Positions 26,222 through 34,799 of a DNA stretch of 64,000 nt are shown one piece after another. The position numbers were made by a program, and so were the translations under genes. The notes below the pieces were generated by a model. That model was not told where the DNA came from. It saw nothing but the letters and a program-made list of their open reading frames with translations, and searched no databases. The DNA is from Rhizobium favelukesii (GTDB taxonomy: Bacteria; Pseudomonadota; Alphaproteobacteria; Rhizobiales; Rhizobiaceae), in assembly GCF_000577275.2 (NCBI RefSeq), contig NZ_HG916852.1:313001-377000 (forward strand). The letters are read 5' to 3'. Position 1 is the stretch's first letter. Every line of letters starts with the position of its first letter.

Positions 26222-26228
26222 CCGATCA
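26222..26228. repeat. Target-site duplication, left copy
   Basis: CCGATCA directly precedes the IS21 left end TGCAGATTCCGA. An identical 7-mer follows the right end. Confidence 0.85.
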
Positions 26229-26330
26229 TGCAGATTCCGAGGCAATCCGCCCCCGCATTCCGAAATAATGCCGCCCCCCAATTCCGAGAATTAACCGCCC
26301 CCTTGTTCCGAGATGATGCCGCCCTCTGAT
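26229..26330. repeat. IS21 left terminal repeats
   Basis: Four related units of the form ATTCCG-N6-8-GCCCCC follow each other (GATTCCGAGG, CATTCCGAAATAATG, AATTCCGAGAATTA, TGTTCCGAGATGATG). The right end, read inward, has the same series. Such multiple short repeats are expected IstA binding sites. Confidence 0.75.
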
Positions 26331-26400
26331 TGGGGTGTTTGTCGGGGTGTTCTGCTGGTGAGACGTTCGTCCTTTCAGTTGCCTGAGAGGAAGGAACGCG

Positions 26401-27172
26401 ATGCCAGCGGAGAGACTGAAGATGCGGCGTGTCCGCGAGATACTGAGATACAGATTTGAGGAAGGCCTTGGCCACAAGTCGATTGCGGTGCGCGTTGGTG
26501 CGGCGCCGTCGACGGTGCGTGAGACGCTGCGCCGTGTGGACATTGCTGGGCTTTCCTGGCCGTTGGGCGAGGACGTCAGCGATGCGATGTTGGAAGCGGC
26601 TCTCTACAAGGCTGCCGGCACGAAGACCGGTCATCGCCGCAGCGCTGAGCCGGATTGGGCTCTTGTTCACCGGGAACTGAAGCGCAAGCATGTGACGCTG
26701 CAGATCCTCTGGGACGAGTATATCGGCCTTCATCCCGAGGGATATCGCTACAGCCGTTACTGTGATTTGTATCGCGGCTGGGCGCTGAAGCTGCCGGTGA
26801 CAACGCGCCAAAACCATGCGGCCGGCGAAAAGCTGTTCGTCGATTATGCCGGCGACACGGTCACGGTGGTCGTCGACAGATTGTCGGGAAAGACGCGGCA
26901 AGCCCACCTGTTCGTCGCAGTGCTCGGCGCATCGAGCCTTTCATTTGCACATGCTCGCTGGAGCGAAACGTTGCCCGACTGGATCGAATGTCACCTGCTT
27001 GCGCTTGAGGCGTTCGGTGGCGCACCGGCGTTGCTGGTTCCCGACAACGCCAAGGTCGCCGTCATCAAGGCCTGCCATTTTGATCCGCAGGTCAATCGCA
27101 CCTATGCCGGGATGGCGGCTCATTACGGAAGCGCTGTTCTTCCGGCACGACCGCGCCGCCCGCGCGACAAGG
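26401..27172 (+). pseudogene. istA: istA, 5' fragment (IS21 transposase)
   Basis: This is the first 257 codons of the IS21 transposase. An HTH region (RYRFEEGLGHKSIAVRVGAAPSTVRETLRR) opens it, then the RNase H-like catalytic core: EKLFVDYAGDTV gives the first Asp and ALLVPDNAKVAV the second. It breaks after PRRPRDK at the junction with the serine-recombinase cassette. The frame reads on for 218 meaningless codons to 27828. The missing remainder, including the catalytic Glu region AKVEAAV, restarts at 30491. Confidence 0.92.
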
Positions 27173-27180
27173 AGCGGACA

Positions 27181-29265
27181 TCACGATGCACCTTGTTGGA
27201 TTTGTTGAGCGCCAATCAACCGGGGTTGGCGGCTACCATAGCGACCGCCGACGCCTTTTGCGAGTCTGACGTTGCCTGGAGGCTCATACAGGTAACGATG
27301 GTTGGTAGCGTAGCGGTGGCGCTTGAGAACGCCATCGCGTCCGAGTTGGTGGACGGTTGTGGTGCTGACGCCAAGCTGGCGGGCGACTTCCTCGCCGGTA
27401 AGCATGCCGCTCTCGCGCAACCGTTCGAACCGGGTCTTCAGCCCATAGGCTCGACGAACGAGCATGACCTTCTTCAGCGTAAAAGGCTCACCGCGCCAGT
27501 TACGATGCCCGAGCGTATTGAGACGACTGGCAATCTGCTGGTCGTTGTCGGTCTCCAGCAGTTCGTTGATCAACGCTACGACCGCTTCCGGGGTCTTGCG
27601 GATCACTGCCATGGGCCGGGGACGAGCGACTGCCAGGCTTTGCGTGCGCCCTCCGCGCCAGCGTATGTGCATGTTGATCTGCTCGTCGACCAGCAGCGTC
27701 ACGTCTTCGATGAGGAGACCAAGCATGCGTTTGCGCTCGACAGCGCTTGTATGTTCGTGGTTCCAGATGCGAGGAAAATCGGCGGCCAGCGCCCGAATCC
27801 GTTCCTGCGTAGGGCCATTCAACAATAACTGGTCTGTCTCGTTTTGACGCTCATGTTCGCGCTGAAGCGCATCGAGGTCGCGTAGTTTGCCATTCCAGTC
27901 CGCTTCGAGTGCGTCGACAACCAAGCGGTTGTCGGGATCGACCTTCAGATAGCGGCGACGTGCGAGTTCAGCCTCATACCGGGCGCGCTGTAGCTGCTTG
28001 TCGCGCAGCGAGGCGGCTTGCTCGACACGTTGTGAGATCTCCTGCTGTACCGCCAGCGCGACTTCTATCGCCGTCGGTGCCATTGCTTCAAGCAGCAACG
28101 CGCTGACCGCTTCATCGATCGCAGGTCCTCTTGCCCATTGGCAGGTCTTTCCAGCGTGACGAACGACGGCCTCGTTGCAGACGTAATAGGGACGAAGCTT
28201 GTCCTCGAACTGTTCATAATGGACCCGCATGCGGGCGCCGCATCGACCGCACAAAACTCGACCTTGCAACAAGCCGCTGCCCTGGCGAGGCATACGACCC
28301 CGCAGGCCCGGAGAAAAACCGACTGCATTTTGTTCCAGGCTTGATTGATTACGCTCGAACTCATCCCATGAGATATAGCCTTCGTGGGCCTGAGGGATGA
28401 GCACCTGCCAGTCGGACCTCGGCATCTTCTGCTGTACGGACTTCAGCTTGGCATTGTAGACAGTGCGTGTGCGTCCGTACGCGAAAGCGCCAGCGTATCG
28501 GGGATTGTGCAAAATCTGAAGCAGACGGGAGTGGTCTATCTCGCTCCAAAGGACATCACCCTTGCCGAGACCGCGCCGAATGCGCCGAGGAAACAGGATC
28601 TTCTCGCTACGCAGGCGGCGCACGACCGCACAAGCTGAGCCCGCCTCCCGGAAGGTATCGAACAGCATGCGCACCGTGTCCTGGATCTGGCGATCCGGAT
28701 CGAGCACCACGCGCGTATCAGGCGTGTAAACGAATCCGATCGGCAACGGTAACTCGAGCTCCCCACGACGCGCCTTATTAAGAATGCCACCTTGCAGTCG
28801 AGACTTCAGGATGTGCAGTTCGGCCTCACTCATCGTGCCCTTCAATCCGAGCAACATACGATCGTTGAAGGACGCCGCGTCGTAGACGCCATCTTCATCC
28901 ATGATGAGCGTGCGCGACATGGCGGCCAACTCAAGAAGGCGATGCCAGTCAGCATTGTTGCGAGCCAGGCGAGATACTTCCAGTCCCAGCACGATCCCTG
29001 CGTGCCCCATCGCGACCTCGCTCACCAAGCGCTGAAATCCGTCGCGGTCCTGCGACTGTGCACCGGAAAGGCCGAGGTCGTTGTCGATGACGTGGACGCG
29101 CTCAATCGGCCAACCCAGCGCCACCGCCCTGTCCCGCAATGCATATTGTCGCTTCGTGCTCTCGGTGTTCTCGAACACCTGACGAAGGGAGGACTGGCGG
29201 ACGTAGAGAAATGCATCGCGCCGCAGGTGATCGGCACTAATCTTCATGGCGTTATCAGTAGACAT
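27181..29265 (-). CDS. Large serine recombinase
   Basis: This 694-aa site-specific recombinase has an N-terminal resolvase domain with YVRQSSLRQV (catalytic Ser at 25), GLEVSRLARN and the DRMLLGLKGTMSEAELH helix. The Recombinase domain follows (FDTFREAGSACAVVRRL, then ILHNPRYAGAFAYG). A zinc ribbon with CGRCG and a later YYVC lies at about 340-385, then a coiled coil rich in Arg and Glu. A C-terminal HTH (LTGEEVARQLGVSTTTVHQL) ends it. It should move the cassette by attL/attR-type strand exchange. Its ATG overlaps the 89-aa gene by 11 bases. Confidence 0.93.
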   Translation of the reverse strand: MSTDNAMKISADHLRRDAFLYVRQSSLRQVFENTESTKRQYALRDRAVALGWPIERVHVIDNDLGLSGAQSQDRDGFQRLVSEVAMGHAGIVLGLEVSRLARNNADWHRLLELAAMSRTLIMDEDGVYDAASFNDRMLLGLKGTMSEAELHILKSRLQGGILNKARRGELELPLPIGFVYTPDTRVVLDPDRQIQDTVRMLFDTFREAGSACAVVRRLRSEKILFPRRIRRGLGKGDVLWSEIDHSRLLQILHNPRYAGAFAYGRTRTVYNAKLKSVQQKMPRSDWQVLIPQAHEGYISWDEFERNQSSLEQNAVGFSPGLRGRMPRQGSGLLQGRVLCGRCGARMRVHYEQFEDKLRPYYVCNEAVVRHAGKTCQWARGPAIDEAVSALLLEAMAPTAIEVALAVQQEISQRVEQAASLRDKQLQRARYEAELARRRYLKVDPDNRLVVDALEADWNGKLRDLDALQREHERQNETDQLLLNGPTQERIRALAADFPRIWNHEHTSAVERKRMLGLLIEDVTLLVDEQINMHIRWRGGRTQSLAVARPRPMAVIRKTPEAVVALINELLETDNDQQIASRLNTLGHRNWRGEPFTLKKVMLVRRAYGLKTRFERLRESGMLTGEEVARQLGVSTTTVHQLGRDGVLKRHRYATNHRYLYEPPGNVRLAKGVGGRYGSRQPRLIGAQQIQQGAS

Positions 29266-29524
29266 GGCTTCCTCCTGTCTCTGCTGCCAGCACCATATTG
29301 GCGAGCATGTGCACGAGCTGGCGATCGTGCGCGACCACTGAAGTTGTCGTGGACCGAGGCGCCGACTGCTGTCGCGCTATCGTGGACTGCTCTGGCGTGA
29401 TCAGCACGGCCAGGCCGCGCCATAGTCCGTGAAAGACGATGGCGCCCATCCGCCTTGCGCAAGCCGTGCCGCAAACAACATCGGCGCGGAGCGCTTCGTA
29501 AATCTCCTTGCCGTTCGCCGGCAT
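29255..29524 (-). CDS. Hypothetical 89-aa protein of the recombinase cassette
   Basis: The frame from ATG at 29524 ends inside the start of the recombinase gene (11-bp overlap), which implies coupled translation. It has no recognised domain. Seen are an N-terminal KEIYEALRADVVCGTACARRMG helix-like part, a short hydrophobic GLAVLITPE, and a C-terminal helix HDRQLVHMLANMVLAAE. Alternatively it is the C-terminal part of the HTH protein: the same frame continues upstream into the nine-A run, and losing one A would fuse the two. Confidence 0.6.
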   Translation of the reverse strand: MPANGKEIYEALRADVVCGTACARRMGAIVFHGLWRGLAVLITPEQSTIARQQSAPRSTTTSVVAHDRQLVHMLANMVLAAETGGSHVY

Positions 29525-29546
29525 GGTGATTGCGTGCGTCCGCCCG

Positions 29547-29996
29547 TCATCGTTTTTTTTTACGCGCCACCGCGCGTTCGATACTGCGAGGATGGACGCT
29601 GATGCCCAGTCTCGAATGCACCAGTTCCGCCAGCGAACGGGCCTGCAGTTGGCCGTTCGCATCGAGATGCTCCTCGACGAGACGCATGACCTCGCCAGTA
29701 AGCTTGTGGGCTGACTTCGGCCCGCGGGTGCGCGGCAAGAGGCCGGCAATGCCATCGCGCTCGAACGCGGCCTCCGCTTGATAATAGGTCTGCCGGGACA
29801 GCCCGAAAAGCGCGGCCGCATCGGCTTTGTTAGTGCCGTCTTGGCGGGCGTGACGAAGCATCTCGTACTTCACTTGCACGAGATCGAGCGGATCAAAGAA
29901 ACCTGCTTCCCGGAACCAGGACGCGTGGACGCCCTCGGGTCTGGGGTTGAGAGCGCCCATCTGGCGCAGGCGATCGGGCTTGCTTTCTTTGGTCAT
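29547..29996 (-). CDS. Helix-turn-helix protein of the recombinase cassette
   Basis: ATG at 29996 has a perfect AGGAGG ribosome site, better than the ATG at 30011. The 149-aa product has an HTH of the type seen in IS630/Tc1-related and cassette regulators (KADAAALFGLSRQTYYQAEAAFERDGIAGLLP), then a winged part GEVMRLVEEHLDANG and SVHPRSIERAVARKKKR. It stops right after nine As. It may act as a recombinase accessory or repressor; repeated motifs lie over its promoter. Confidence 0.82.
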   Translation of the reverse strand: MTKESKPDRLRQMGALNPRPEGVHASWFREAGFFDPLDLVQVKYEMLRHARQDGTNKADAAALFGLSRQTYYQAEAAFERDGIAGLLPRTRGPKSAHKLTGEVMRLVEEHLDANGQLQARSLAELVHSRLGISVHPRSIERAVARKKKR

Positions 29997-30011
29997 AGGC
30001 GCCTCCTGCAT

Positions 30012-30172
30012 GTAACGTAAAATATGCCGCTGCCGACTTTAGTGTCAATTGAATTATATCGAGCTATTAGCCAAAGCGCTTGCATTATAATGATACTTCA
30101 CATAAGGAAGCCGTCGCAAACATCGTAGTCGCGGCATAATTACCTTGACATTTGCGGCGTAATTTACTTGAC
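30012..30172. promoter_or_regulatory. Cassette promoter with three 19-bp motif copies
   Basis: On the minus strand TTGACA (30043-30048) stands 17-18 bp from ATATTT/TATTTT (30019-30025), a good promoter for the HTH-recombinase operon. Two direct 19-bp copies lie at 30131-30149 and 30154-30172 (GCGGCATAATTACCTTGAC, GCGGCGTAATTTACTTGAC). A third, inverted and 15/19 matched, lies at 30012-30030 over the -10 region. They may be sites for the HTH protein or the recombinase. Confidence 0.65.
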
Positions 30173-30178
30173 GCATCT

Positions 30179-30442
30179 TCAATCTCCATGGTGGTCCTTG
30201 ATGTGAGCAATCAATGACGCCAGCGCCGACAGATCGTCTGGGCGCGAGAAGGACCGACCTGCGGCTATCTGGCGGAATGCGTCGATCTCATCGACATCCG
30301 TCCACGAGGCCGGCAGCGAACGCAGTCGTCCTTGAACGTCATAGAACATGACGCGGTCTTCGCCCCAATTCTGCTTGCGCGTCGCCAGAACGAAACGCTG
30401 GCCACGCCAGGGATGAAAGGGGTGCGTTACTTCAAACTCTAT
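30179..30442 (-). pseudogene. DUF5372-like protein, no usable start codon
   Basis: The minus frame ending at 30179 reads EFEVTHPFHPWRGQRFVLATR, then NWGEDRVMFYD, RLRSLPASWTDVDE and AAGRSFSRPDDLSALASLI, the full pattern of DUF5372 proteins that accompany serine recombinases. No ATG, GTG or TTG precedes the conserved part. The codon where a start would be expected is ATA at 30442, and the frame runs out of the cassette into istA. It is either start-mutated or uses a non-standard start. Function is unknown. Confidence 0.6.
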
Positions 30443-30490
30443 GCGCGCTTGGCTAGTTGCACGAGCTGCAGTCCTGGACTTGAAAGAAGG

Positions 30491-31269
30491 CGAAGGTCGA
30501 AGCCGCGGTTCGCATTGTCGAGCGCTGGCTGCTGGGTCGACTACGCCACCGCGTCTTTTACAGCCTTGCCGACGTGAATGCGGCGATTGCTGAATTGCTC
30601 GCTGATCTCAACGACAGGCGCGTCCTGCGTCGCGTCGGGCGCACGCGACGGCAATTGTTCGAAGAGCTGGATTATCCCGCCCTGCGTCCGCTGCCTGTGG
30701 AACGATACGTCTTTGCGGAATGGAAGATACGCAGGGCCGGTCTCGATTATCATGTCGATATCGACAAGCACTATTACTCGGTGCCCTACCGCTTTGCGCG
30801 TGAGCAGGTCGAGGCCCGCATCACCGCCAATACCATCGAGATCTTCCACAAAGGTGAGCGGATTGCCGCCCACAGGCGTTCGAGTGGCAATGGCAAGCAC
30901 ACGACAACGCCCGAGCACATGCCGTCATCGCATCGCCGCTTTGCCGACTGGACGATCGAACGTATCAGCCGCGAAGCCTCCGCGATCGGCTCAGACGTTG
31001 CATTGCTCTGCGAGCGTATTCTTGCCGATCGACCGCATCCCGAACAGGGCTACAGAGCCTGTCTGGGCATTATCCGCCTCGTCAAAGCGTTTGAGCGCGA
31101 GAGGGTCAATGCAGCCTGCGGCCGGGCATTGGAAATCGGCGCTCGAACCTATGGCTCGGTGCGTTCCATTCTCGACAATCACCTTGACCGACCGTCGGCG
31201 TCATCAGGCGCATCATCACCCGAGCCGATCAACCACTCCAACATCCGCGGTCCCCGCTATTACCACTGA
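30491..31269 (+). pseudogene. istA: istA, 3' fragment (IS21 transposase)
   Basis: This holds the last 260 or so codons of IstA, resuming exactly at [16 protein letters not shown], which contains the catalytic Glu of the DDE core. It continues through [16 protein letters not shown] (C-terminal beta-barrel) to the stop. It has no start of its own. Joining 27172 to 30491 restores one uninterrupted frame of normal IstA length (about 516 aa), which shows that the cassette is the only lesion. Confidence 0.9.
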
Positions 31270-31280
31270 GGAGACGACAT

Positions 31281-32018
31281 ATGCTTGCACATCCTACCCT
31301 TGATAAATTGAATGCCATGGGCCTGACTGGCATGGCCAAGGCGTTCAACGAACTGCTGACCAACGGTGAGAGCGAACAACTCTCCCATGCCGAATGGCTC
31401 GGGCTACTGCTGGAGCGAGAATGGAGTTCGCGCCACGATCGCAAGCTTGCCGCCCGGCTGCGGTTTGCCAAGCTTCGCCATCATGCTGTGCCTGAGGATG
31501 TCGATTACCGCAGCGACCGCGGTCTCGATCGTGCGCTGTTCATGAAGCTGATCGGCGGCGACTGGATTGATGCCCACGACAACCTCGCGATTTGCGGGCC
31601 ATCTGGCGTTGGCAAAAGCTGGTTAGCCTGTGCACTCGGGCACAAGGCCTGCCGCGACGATCGCTCAGTTCTTTATCAACGCGTGCCACGCTTGTTTGCC
31701 AATCTCGCTCTTGCCCACGGCGACGGCCGCTATGCAAGGCTGCAGCGAACCCTCGGCCACGTCCAGCTCTTGATCCTTGATGACTGGGGTCTGGAACCGC
31801 TCAATGAGCAGGCACGCCACGACCTCCTGGAGATCCTCGAAGATCGCTACGGACGCCGCTCGACGATTATCACCAGCCAGCTTCCGGTATCAGCCTGGCA
31901 CGAGATCATCGGCAACCCAACCTACGCCGATGCCATCCTCGATCGCCTCGTTCACAACGCCCACCGCATCGACCTATCCGGCGAAAGCTTGCGGCGAAAT
32001 CAGCGCCGGAAATCTTGA
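31281..32018 (+). CDS. istB: IS21 helper ATPase IstB
   Basis: This 245-aa AAA+ protein, related to DnaC, supports IstA by capturing target DNA. Walker A is GPSGVGKS (106-113), Walker B LLILDDWG (163-170), and sensor I lies in STIITSQLP. It starts 11 bp after the istA stop, as usual. The gene is intact although its partner is broken, so it could still serve a related IS21 copy elsewhere. Confidence 0.95.
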   Translation: MLAHPTLDKLNAMGLTGMAKAFNELLTNGESEQLSHAEWLGLLLEREWSSRHDRKLAARLRFAKLRHHAVPEDVDYRSDRGLDRALFMKLIGGDWIDAHDNLAICGPSGVGKSWLACALGHKACRDDRSVLYQRVPRLFANLALAHGDGRYARLQRTLGHVQLLILDDWGLEPLNEQARHDLLEILEDRYGRRSTIITSQLPVSAWHEIIGNPTYADAILDRLVHNAHRIDLSGESLRRNQRRKS

Positions 32019-32069
32019 CTCGTTACACGAATGAACTGACAACAATCACAGCCAGCAGGACCCCAGCCT

Positions 32070-32144
32070 CAAGGGGGCGAGATCATCCCGGAATCCGGGG
32101 GCGCAATCATCTCGGAACAAGGGGCGGCTTCATCGGAATCGGCA
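32070..32144. repeat. IS21 right terminal repeats
   Basis: Read inward from 32144, units GATTCCGATGAAGCCGCCCC, TGTTCCGAGATGATTGCGCCCCC and GATTCCGGGATGATCTCGCCCCC repeat the left-end pattern. Confidence 0.75.
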
Positions 32145-32151
32145 CCGATCA
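32145..32151. repeat. Target-site duplication, right copy
   Basis: CCGATCA, identical to 26222-26228, directly follows the IS21 right end. Confidence 0.85.
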
Positions 32152-33806: not shown

Positions 33807-34799
33807 ATGATCCAAGCCGATACCTCCACACCTCTGATCACTGTTGTCGGTGCCTCGAGCAAGCAAGGCCGCAGTGTCGCCGAGGCCCTGCTCGACAGTG
33901 GGCGCTACCGGGTGCGTGCCCTGACGCGCCGCCGCGATAGCCAGCCCGCGCAAATCTTGGCGCAGAAGGGCGCCGAGGTCGTGGTGGCACCCCTTGAACT
34001 CGGCATGGAGGCCGAGCTAACCGCGGCCATGAGCGGCTCGTACGGAGCGTTCTTGATGACGCCGCCCATCGTCAAGGTGCCGCCGGAGGAACACGAGCTT
34101 ACCCTCGGCATGGAATTGGCTAACGCGGCGGTGGCCGCTGGCGTCGAACATGTGGTTTTCAGCGGGCTCGAAAATGTCGAAGCGCGTACCGGCGGCACTA
34201 AGTGGGCGCCGCACTTCACCGACAAGGCGAAGGTGGAGGACTACATTCGCAGCTTGCCCGTTCGCAGTTCGTTCGTGTACCTGGCGTTTTACTACACCAA
34301 TTTCCTAGAATACTATGTGCCGCAGCGCGGGGCGGACGGCATAACGTTCCCCATATACTTGCCGCCACATATTCCCATGCCGTTCTGTGATCCGCTCACT
34401 GCCGCCGGACCGGCGGTGCGCGAGATTTTCGATCACCCCACGCAATACGCCGGCAAAACCCTCCCAGTGATCGGCGAATTTCTCTCGGCGCAAGAAATGG
34501 TGGACACTTTTGTGCGGGTCACCGGACAGCGGGCGCACTACGCCTCCGCTTTCTCGCGCGAAGAATTGTTGCACCACTTTCCGAGTTTTGCCGCCGACGA
34601 GCATCTCGTGCGCGAATTGGTGGGCATGGTGGAATACGCCGTCGAGTATGGCTATTACGCCCCCGACCGCGACCTGACGTGGAGTCGGAAAATCGATCCG
34701 CATGCGTTGACTTGGGAGCAGTTCCTGAAACGCAGCAATTGGCAAGGCGACCTGCTGTCCTATGGCGCCACCTCAGAGGCCGACCTTTTGTCGACGTAA
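33807..34799 (+). CDS. NmrA/NAD(P)H-binding family protein
   Basis: From ATG 33807 (AGGAGA upstream) this is a 330-aa atypical SDR. The Rossmann motif is VVGASSKQGRSVAEAL (13-28) with ALTRR after the second strand, suggesting NADPH. FSGLENVEAR and FYYTNFLEYYVPQ are typical of NmrA/HSCARG-like proteins. The SDR catalytic Tyr-Lys pair is not obvious. It may sense redox state or act as a quinone-type reductase. It is paired with the divergent LysR regulator. Confidence 0.88.
   Translation: MIQADTSTPLITVVGASSKQGRSVAEALLDSGRYRVRALTRRRDSQPAQILAQKGAEVVVAPLELGMEAELTAAMSGSYGAFLMTPPIVKVPPEEHELTLGMELANAAVAAGVEHVVFSGLENVEARTGGTKWAPHFTDKAKVEDYIRSLPVRSSFVYLAFYYTNFLEYYVPQRGADGITFPIYLPPHIPMPFCDPLTAAGPAVREIFDHPTQYAGKTLPVIGEFLSAQEMVDTFVRVTGQRAHYASAFSREELLHHFPSFAADEHLVRELVGMVEYAVEYGYYAPDRDLTWSRKIDPHALTWEQFLKRSNWQGDLLSYGATSEADLLST

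Follow-up and report, generated by a model that had tools for sequence, protein, structure and literature searches.

A small serine-recombinase element found at conserved glutamate codons of transposase genes in Rhizobium favelukesii

In a 64,000-nucleotide stretch of the Rhizobium favelukesii genome (contig NZ_HG916852.1, positions 313,001 to 377,000; hereafter the window), the transposase gene istA of an insertion sequence (IS) of the IS21 family is split by a 3.3-kb cassette that encodes a large serine recombinase (LSR), which raises the question of what the cassette is and why it lies at this position. A preliminary description had placed it at 27173-30486 and had taken it for a minimal self-moving unit of four genes with a defined boundary. 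Our analysis finds that a single mobile element makes its living by splitting others of several different kinds. We propose, at a probability of about 0.9, that the cassette is an autonomous LSR element entering sites built of transposase active-site codons.

Ends and crossover core of the element

When the istA flanks of the cassette are rejoined, they form a single IstA frame that scores as an IS21 transposase (NCBIfam) and matches, at 99.2%, an uninterrupted istA annotated in Rhizobium sp. T1473, as expected of the clean insertion first described. To define the joint, edges were compared with empty sites, as the preliminary description had proposed. In Microvirga sp. VF16, an IS3 element is occupied on pMVF16-2 and empty on pMVF16-5, and the joined flanks of the occupied copy agree with the unoccupied sequence over 399 of 400 bases. 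The empty site (attB) reads GC-AA-CGG, the left joint GC-AA-GG, and the right joint AG-AA-CGG; only AA is common to all, and the crossover core is two bases, AA. An uninterrupted relative of a short-chain dehydrogenase/reductase (SDR) gene in Rhizobium sp. 11515TR (77.9%) agrees with this core, as does the T1473 istA. No target duplication longer than the two-base core was found between the empty and occupied IS3 sites of this one strain. The original coordinates are thus correct to within the core (Table 1), which in the window opens the K codon of K-A-K-V-E in istA.

The ends were also compared among copies retrieved from Rhizobium, Sinorhizobium, Ensifer, and Microvirga, which gave 27 junction pairs; these pairs, and the 38 flanks considered below, are distinct and not all independent, many being kin copies of one IS. 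The two ends are identical in all 27 pairs: in recombinase orientation, CTTTCAAG starts after TT and GCTCC finishes before TT, and the base beside TT on the left (target) side is variable. Changed ends were seen in some one-sided junctions (L113, L053, and L025). Of the AAGG reported at both ends, only AA is the shared core; the GG belongs to the element on the left (constant in 27/27 pairs) and to the target on the right. AAGG as the core was rejected because target sites with AAC or AAA retain AA only. No terminal inverted repeat was found, in agreement with the preliminary description; the best 15-mer end-to-end match (9/15) was equalled in 194 of 200 shuffles.

The element measures 3,298-3,322 bp in 25 of the 27 pairs, and the other two (4,629 and 5,737 bp) are longer because of later internal insertions (ISRm3 in L117 and a stretch of ∼2.4 kb in L166). 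With this size and a gene set that lacks structural or conjugation genes, it is too small for a phage or an integrative and conjugative element, as had been argued. Homologous copies with quite different boundaries did not turn up, nor were the genes confined to larger elements. The earlier view that the gene set is known only as loosely linked families did not hold: this is a tight, many-copy unit, and 61 of the 75 plasmid records that match its DNA carry 80% or more of the insert at a single location. The recombinase is matched by 436 plasmid records at E < 1e-60, and a scan of one genome per species found 45 loci, near and distant. One copy was found on pSymA of Sinorhizobium meliloti 1021. 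Of the five copies in the window genome, which are 98-100% identical, three split istA, and the other two lie in an ISNCY-type transposase gene and in an SDR gene. The uniform ends of the 27 pairs support the reading as a minimal, well-bounded unit, and self-movement as such is inferred from the copy number and the variety of sites, no circle or transposition event having been seen.

Target sites and how they may be chosen

What do the occupied sites have in common? In 26 of the 27 junction pairs, the DNA past the core codes for (K/N)-x-x-x-E of a transposase (IS21, IS3, or ISNCY). In L125 and L160, the longest open frame across the joint differs, and the common phase reads K-G-K-L-E and K-G-K-D-E; the flanks of L175 come from different genes and do not belong together. 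By NCBIfam, eight target frames were assigned to IS21 (five frames, four above the curated cut-off and one at 154.1 versus 160), ISNCY (above cut-off), an IS3/IS2 type (below cut-off, 140.7 versus 160), and SDR. The element is not tied to IS21.

The same rule was seen in 38 distinct left flanks, drawn from the pairs, one-sided junctions, and the relatives of the 65% type (the last mostly beta-proteobacterial), when only left ends of set pattern forms were counted and L019, L020, and truncated ends were left out. A Glu is the fifth residue from the core in 37 of them, the SDR flank included, and the remaining flank (L113) is one codon off as parsed and fits when the altered end of this copy is considered. 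This Glu is well established as the third catalytic residue of rve/DDE enzymes.

A motif model was made from full sites clustered at 80% and aligned on AA, with L175 excluded. The resulting 12 clusters comprise eight IS21 types (five of them family-tested by NCBIfam), two IS3, one ISNCY, and one SDR. GA at +12/+13 and C at -8 are present in 12/12, G at +9 in 11/12, and C at -9 and G at +3 each in 10/12. In leave-one-out scoring, 9 of the 12 sites reach 19.3-41.2, above the best background score of 19.2 among 5,308 AA positions in 58,150 bases of the window. The SDR site also has CC and GA in a gene for an unrelated protein, which argues that recognition is at the DNA level.

Based on these results, we propose that the LSR would recognize a DNA site with the core AA, CC at -9/-8, G at +3 and +9, and GA at +12/+13, conserved bases that belong to the codons of P-x-x-(K/N)-G-x-x-E, the segment in which rve/DDE transposases have their third catalytic residue. 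The element would probably be excised as a circle joined at AA, and the circle would enter a new matching site by a two-base crossover. Codons that are hard for transposases to change would provide an abundant and dispensable home across several IS families, and the element may also ride on its host IS. The DUF5372 protein and the product of the putative helix-turn-helix (HTH) slippage gene described below would most likely be DNA-binding or directionality factors.

Several observations weigh against this proposal. One of the 27 pairs lies in a host SDR (dehydrogenase) gene whose site has a poor score (4.1), and two more sites fall inside the background range, ISNCY at 7.3 and one IS21 at 11.6. 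The high IS21 scores partly reflect shared ancestry, because 8 of the 12 clusters are IS21 types. Candidate sites in ordinary-looking genes of the window, at 34224 (score 15.0) and 57821 (score 8.0), are unoccupied, so survivorship may add to the bias. The recombinase frame is broken in some copies, including one in the window genome (L003). Finally, the joined attP site was covered over at least 80% of its length in none of 70 matching plasmid records, and it was found in no viral contig.

Two other accounts of the sites have to be weighed. The element could have a loose DNA preference, the excess of transposase genes arising by survivorship as insertions in host genes are lost and those in IS genes are kept. 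The SDR insertion does show that host genes can be hit, moderate sites in ordinary-looking genes stand empty, and two distant relatives (L038 and L227) adjoin host-like genes as judged by eye. Loss of harmful insertions alone, however, would not place the joint at one codon and in one phase in unlike transposases, and the two IS3 sites, which are alike each other and not kin of the IS21 sites, score 20.2 and 23.2 against the background maximum of 19.2. We regard survivorship as quite unlikely to be the explanation.

It is far less probable still that the cassette is an IS21 passenger that entered one istA a single time and later spread only with that IS. A second IS21 block with the insert in the window genome is 99.95% identical to the window block over 5,917 aligned bases, each block carries a separate flanking duplication, and each of the three closely similar copies of this IS21 that the genome has (100, 100, and 89%) is occupied. 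Separate insertion or gene conversion would explain the two like blocks equally well, however, and the same element ends occur in IS3-type and ISNCY genes, in several unlike IS21 types, and in the SDR gene. Both istA and IS3 are also found unoccupied. So varied a set of host genes refutes the passenger account as the sole route; travel with the host IS21 may be a second one. The idea that the cassette is normal IS21 cargo was ruled out by the insertions in non-IS21 genes. The autonomous, site-directed LSR element remains our preferred reading, and it upholds the preliminary interpretation, to which it adds the target rule, the AA core, and the probable slippage gene.

Gene content and a putative slippage gene

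The recombinase has the domain order Resolvase (residues 18-169), Recombinase, and zinc ribbon, all three above the curated Pfam cut-off, followed at ∼620-661 by weak matches to MerR/excisionase-like HTH domains that lie below cut-off (Pfam, PHROGs, and NCBIfam). A defence function for the element was considered and rejected; the sole PADLOC match is weak and falls in this C-terminal HTH region. The predicted DUF5372 structure (AlphaFold2, AF2) has five strands and a C-terminal helix (mean predicted local distance difference test score, 86.2; predicted template modelling score, 0.57). In the window copy, the DUF5372 frame (30179-30486) has no ATG, GTG, or TTG start within the element, and it is open to the element end and across the joint.

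Table 1. The element, its host IS21, and the joints, in positions of the window
Feature	Position	Strand	Basis or remark
7-bp duplication CCGATCA flanking the IS21 element	26222-26228 and 32145-32151		
IS21-family host element with insertion	26229..32144	+	starts TGCAGATTCCGA, finishes TCGGAATCGGCA
istA 5' part, through AA core	26401..27170	+	joined frame is IS21 by NCBIfam
Left crossover core AA	27169..27170	.	Microvirga empty and occupied IS3 sites
Mobile-element body, 3,316 bp (3,318 counting one AA)	27171..30486	-	5 copies in window genome; 27 distinct junction pairs
Large serine recombinase, 694 aa	27181..29265	-	Pfam, PHROGs, NCBIfam
'89-aa' frame, overlapping recombinase start	29255..29524	-	probably C-terminal part of slippage gene
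HTH protein (HTH_28)	29547..30011	-	Pfam
A9 run (T9 on +), putative slippage site between HTH and '89-aa' frames	29553..29561	-	
DUF5372 (PF17342) frame	30179..30445	-	Pfam
Right crossover core AA	30487..30488	.	Microvirga empty and occupied IS3 sites
istA 3' part, K-A-K-V-E-A-A-V...	30487..31269	+	
istB, intact	31281..32018	+	Pfam IstB_IS21

The four reading frames of the preliminary description are present, and two of them, the HTH and '89-aa' frames, are probably parts of one gene that slippage at a conserved A9 run would join. The HTH frame stops just past this run, the '89-aa' frame runs across it, and it is the sole A/T run of at least 7 in the window copy. Among 27 distinct alpha-proteobacterial elements, the run is A9 in 20, A8 in 3, A7 in 3, and A10 in 1. 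In the natural A8 copies (L002; L115 and L125, which are one copy; and L134), a single open frame of 254-260 codons is found, so the gene count is probably three, not four. Of 12 relatives of the 65% type, ten from Paraburkholderia or Caballeronia and two from metagenome-assembled genomes, 11 have A9 and one (L031) has A8. At the equivalent place, the sister group described below has A8, or A7 in the case of L215, and A9 is present in two distant relatives. Among the 65%-type and sister elements that were worked out, the second frame is -1, and in the alpha elements it is +1; such opposite directions are easier to reconcile with polymerase slippage than with a ribosomal shift, which would go one way. 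Slippage is already known from IS elements (PMC5009743).

That the two frames are separately started genes, with the A9 run incidental, we consider fairly unlikely. In the window, the second frame does have an ATG just ahead of its conserved part, and a Sinorhizobium meliloti copy is annotated with an 89-aa protein that starts at that ATG position. Against this stand the retention of A9 in most alpha and 65%-type elements, in spite of a window recombinase that encodes its 22 lysines with 19 AAG and 3 AAA codons, and the runs of A7-A9 at the matching place in sister groups. In addition, in the 65%-type second frames that were read, no ATG, the one start codon looked for, separates the run from the conserved part. 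The HTH part resembles the N-terminal regions of IS630 and IS481 transposases (NCBIfam, below their cut-offs), and the AF2 model is confident at residues ∼11-150, the extension being poorly predicted.

Some copies show further rearrangement. In pRmeGR4b of S. meliloti GR4 (L167, W02:176529-185755), the element is split by a block with an IS21 istB and another element copy, a nesting of element in IS in element. At one insertion locus that is present in both Rhizobium sp. T136 and the window genome (L002 and L124), the flanks are alike over 1,500 bases on each side, the element copies are only 98.7% alike, and yet L002 agrees at 99.97% with the window copy, which lies elsewhere in the genome; this mismatch at one locus may reflect gene conversion or replacement. 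In draft Paraburkholderia and Caballeronia assemblies (L015, L017, and L029), the element is a separate contig of ∼3.3 kb, as expected of a collapsed repeat or a circle.

Relatives and comparison with known systems

Do related recombinases also break mobile-element genes? A sister group of ∼47% amino acid identity and ∼3.39 kb occurs in Rhizobium, including the window genome. Of its 17 loci fetched (L199-L215), 10 were parsed, with contig-end or unclear-end loci left out and L205 misparsed; the joint is in IS66 TnpB in nine of the ten, at the K of K-x-L-x-x-x-x-F-x-W-P, one frame having been checked with Pfam.

For 31 distant loci, one flanking frame from each of 20 was submitted to Pfam, and a break at a mobile-element gene is supported in 18 of the 31 by this test, among them L221 (IS110), which is below cut-off. 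Within IS66 TnpC, IstB, and tyrosine-recombinase genes, the positions recur. The IS66 transposase ends at profile positions 265-270 of 284 in L036, L037, L041, L042, L052, and L232 and reaches the profile end (283) in L220 and L222; in L035, the C-terminal element of this transposase follows the insert. A tyrosine recombinase ends at 153-154 of 172 in L044, L045, and L047, IstB ends at 101 (L219), 104 (L040), and 207 (L226) of 238, TnpB ends at 95 of 101 in L230, and L224 adjoins an IS630-type frame. L233 (below cut-off) and L231 (transposase frame 373 bp off) are not counted among the 18, and L039 and L048 resemble IS66 by eye. Two further loci are of note in their own right. L222 (G000:C62:464725-466590), in the window genome, is a decayed distant relative whose recombinase has four stops. 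L238 is a DUF5372-HTH-recombinase set with a T9/A9 run that adjoins an IS3-like frame reading D-N-G-Y-N-E-S-F-N-G, by eye perhaps the DDE glutamate segment.

In a quick tree of 45 recombinases, targets group by clade; some labels are presumed, several branches are long, and the deep order is unsure. The TnpB label was given to all sister-group rows except L213, including the unparsed or misparsed L207, L214, and L205. DUF5372 gave 11 hits, in 5 of 289 genomes, all 11 beside a serine-recombinase frame (two judged by eye), and none in 14 control genomes. These results lead us to favour, with moderate confidence, a DUF5372-marked serine-recombinase superfamily that parasitises mobile elements through clade-specific codon targets: the DDE glutamate segment (IS21, IS3, and ISNCY), K-x-L-E of IS66 TnpB, IS66 TnpC after V-E-R-x-I-R-P, the nucleotide-binding loop of IstB, and the L-G-H box of tyrosine recombinases. 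Its members would be natural transposase silencers. A family that targets conserved codons in the recombination genes of other elements is the larger finding.

The window element offers a clear case of a mobile element directed to DNA that encodes an active-site motif common to several families of other mobile elements. Such a site is hard to mutate because a change would kill the host transposase. Hyperparasites that silence IS elements would add a new layer to mobile-element ecology and would explain why rhizobial IS copies are interrupted at a single position. The related recombinases, whose target sites are readable and well separated, would be useful for learning how LSR specificity changes.

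TnpX makes a two-base crossover and has no inverted repeats, in which the window element is like it. Likenesses to TnpX/TndX-type LSR transposases also include the LSR domain order and the use of several target genes. Unlike that type, the window recombinase has no DUF4368 match (Pfam to E = 1, where filters drop most matches above ∼0.1), and the window element has an AA core, is 3.3 kb without cargo, and targets nearly always transposase active-site codons. In a multi-targeting LSR clade, 63% of members have DUF4368 (PMC10083194), and the available text of that report mentions no class of transposase active-site targets. IS607 is likewise a small serine-recombinase mobile element, and its enzymes have an inverted domain order and minimal target specificity (PMC4058570 and PMC6188088). 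The window element shares with IS607, as described there, its small size, its serine recombinase, and the lack of inverted repeats; it differs in an enzyme with the catalytic domain first and HTH-like matches near the C terminus, and in a long site.

The window element contains the DUF5372 domain (PF17342), for which no function is described and whose name is absent from the literature searched. That search, with most subscription papers and preprints outside its scope, found no description of this element or target class. The habit of living in other mobile elements has parallels, since IS1111 members live in transposon ends and since RmInt1 and other group II introns occupy IS elements in S. 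meliloti. Like these, the window element uses another mobile element as an abundant, dispensable home; unlike it, they work by different enzyme chemistry and are not aimed at catalytic-motif codons common to several IS families.

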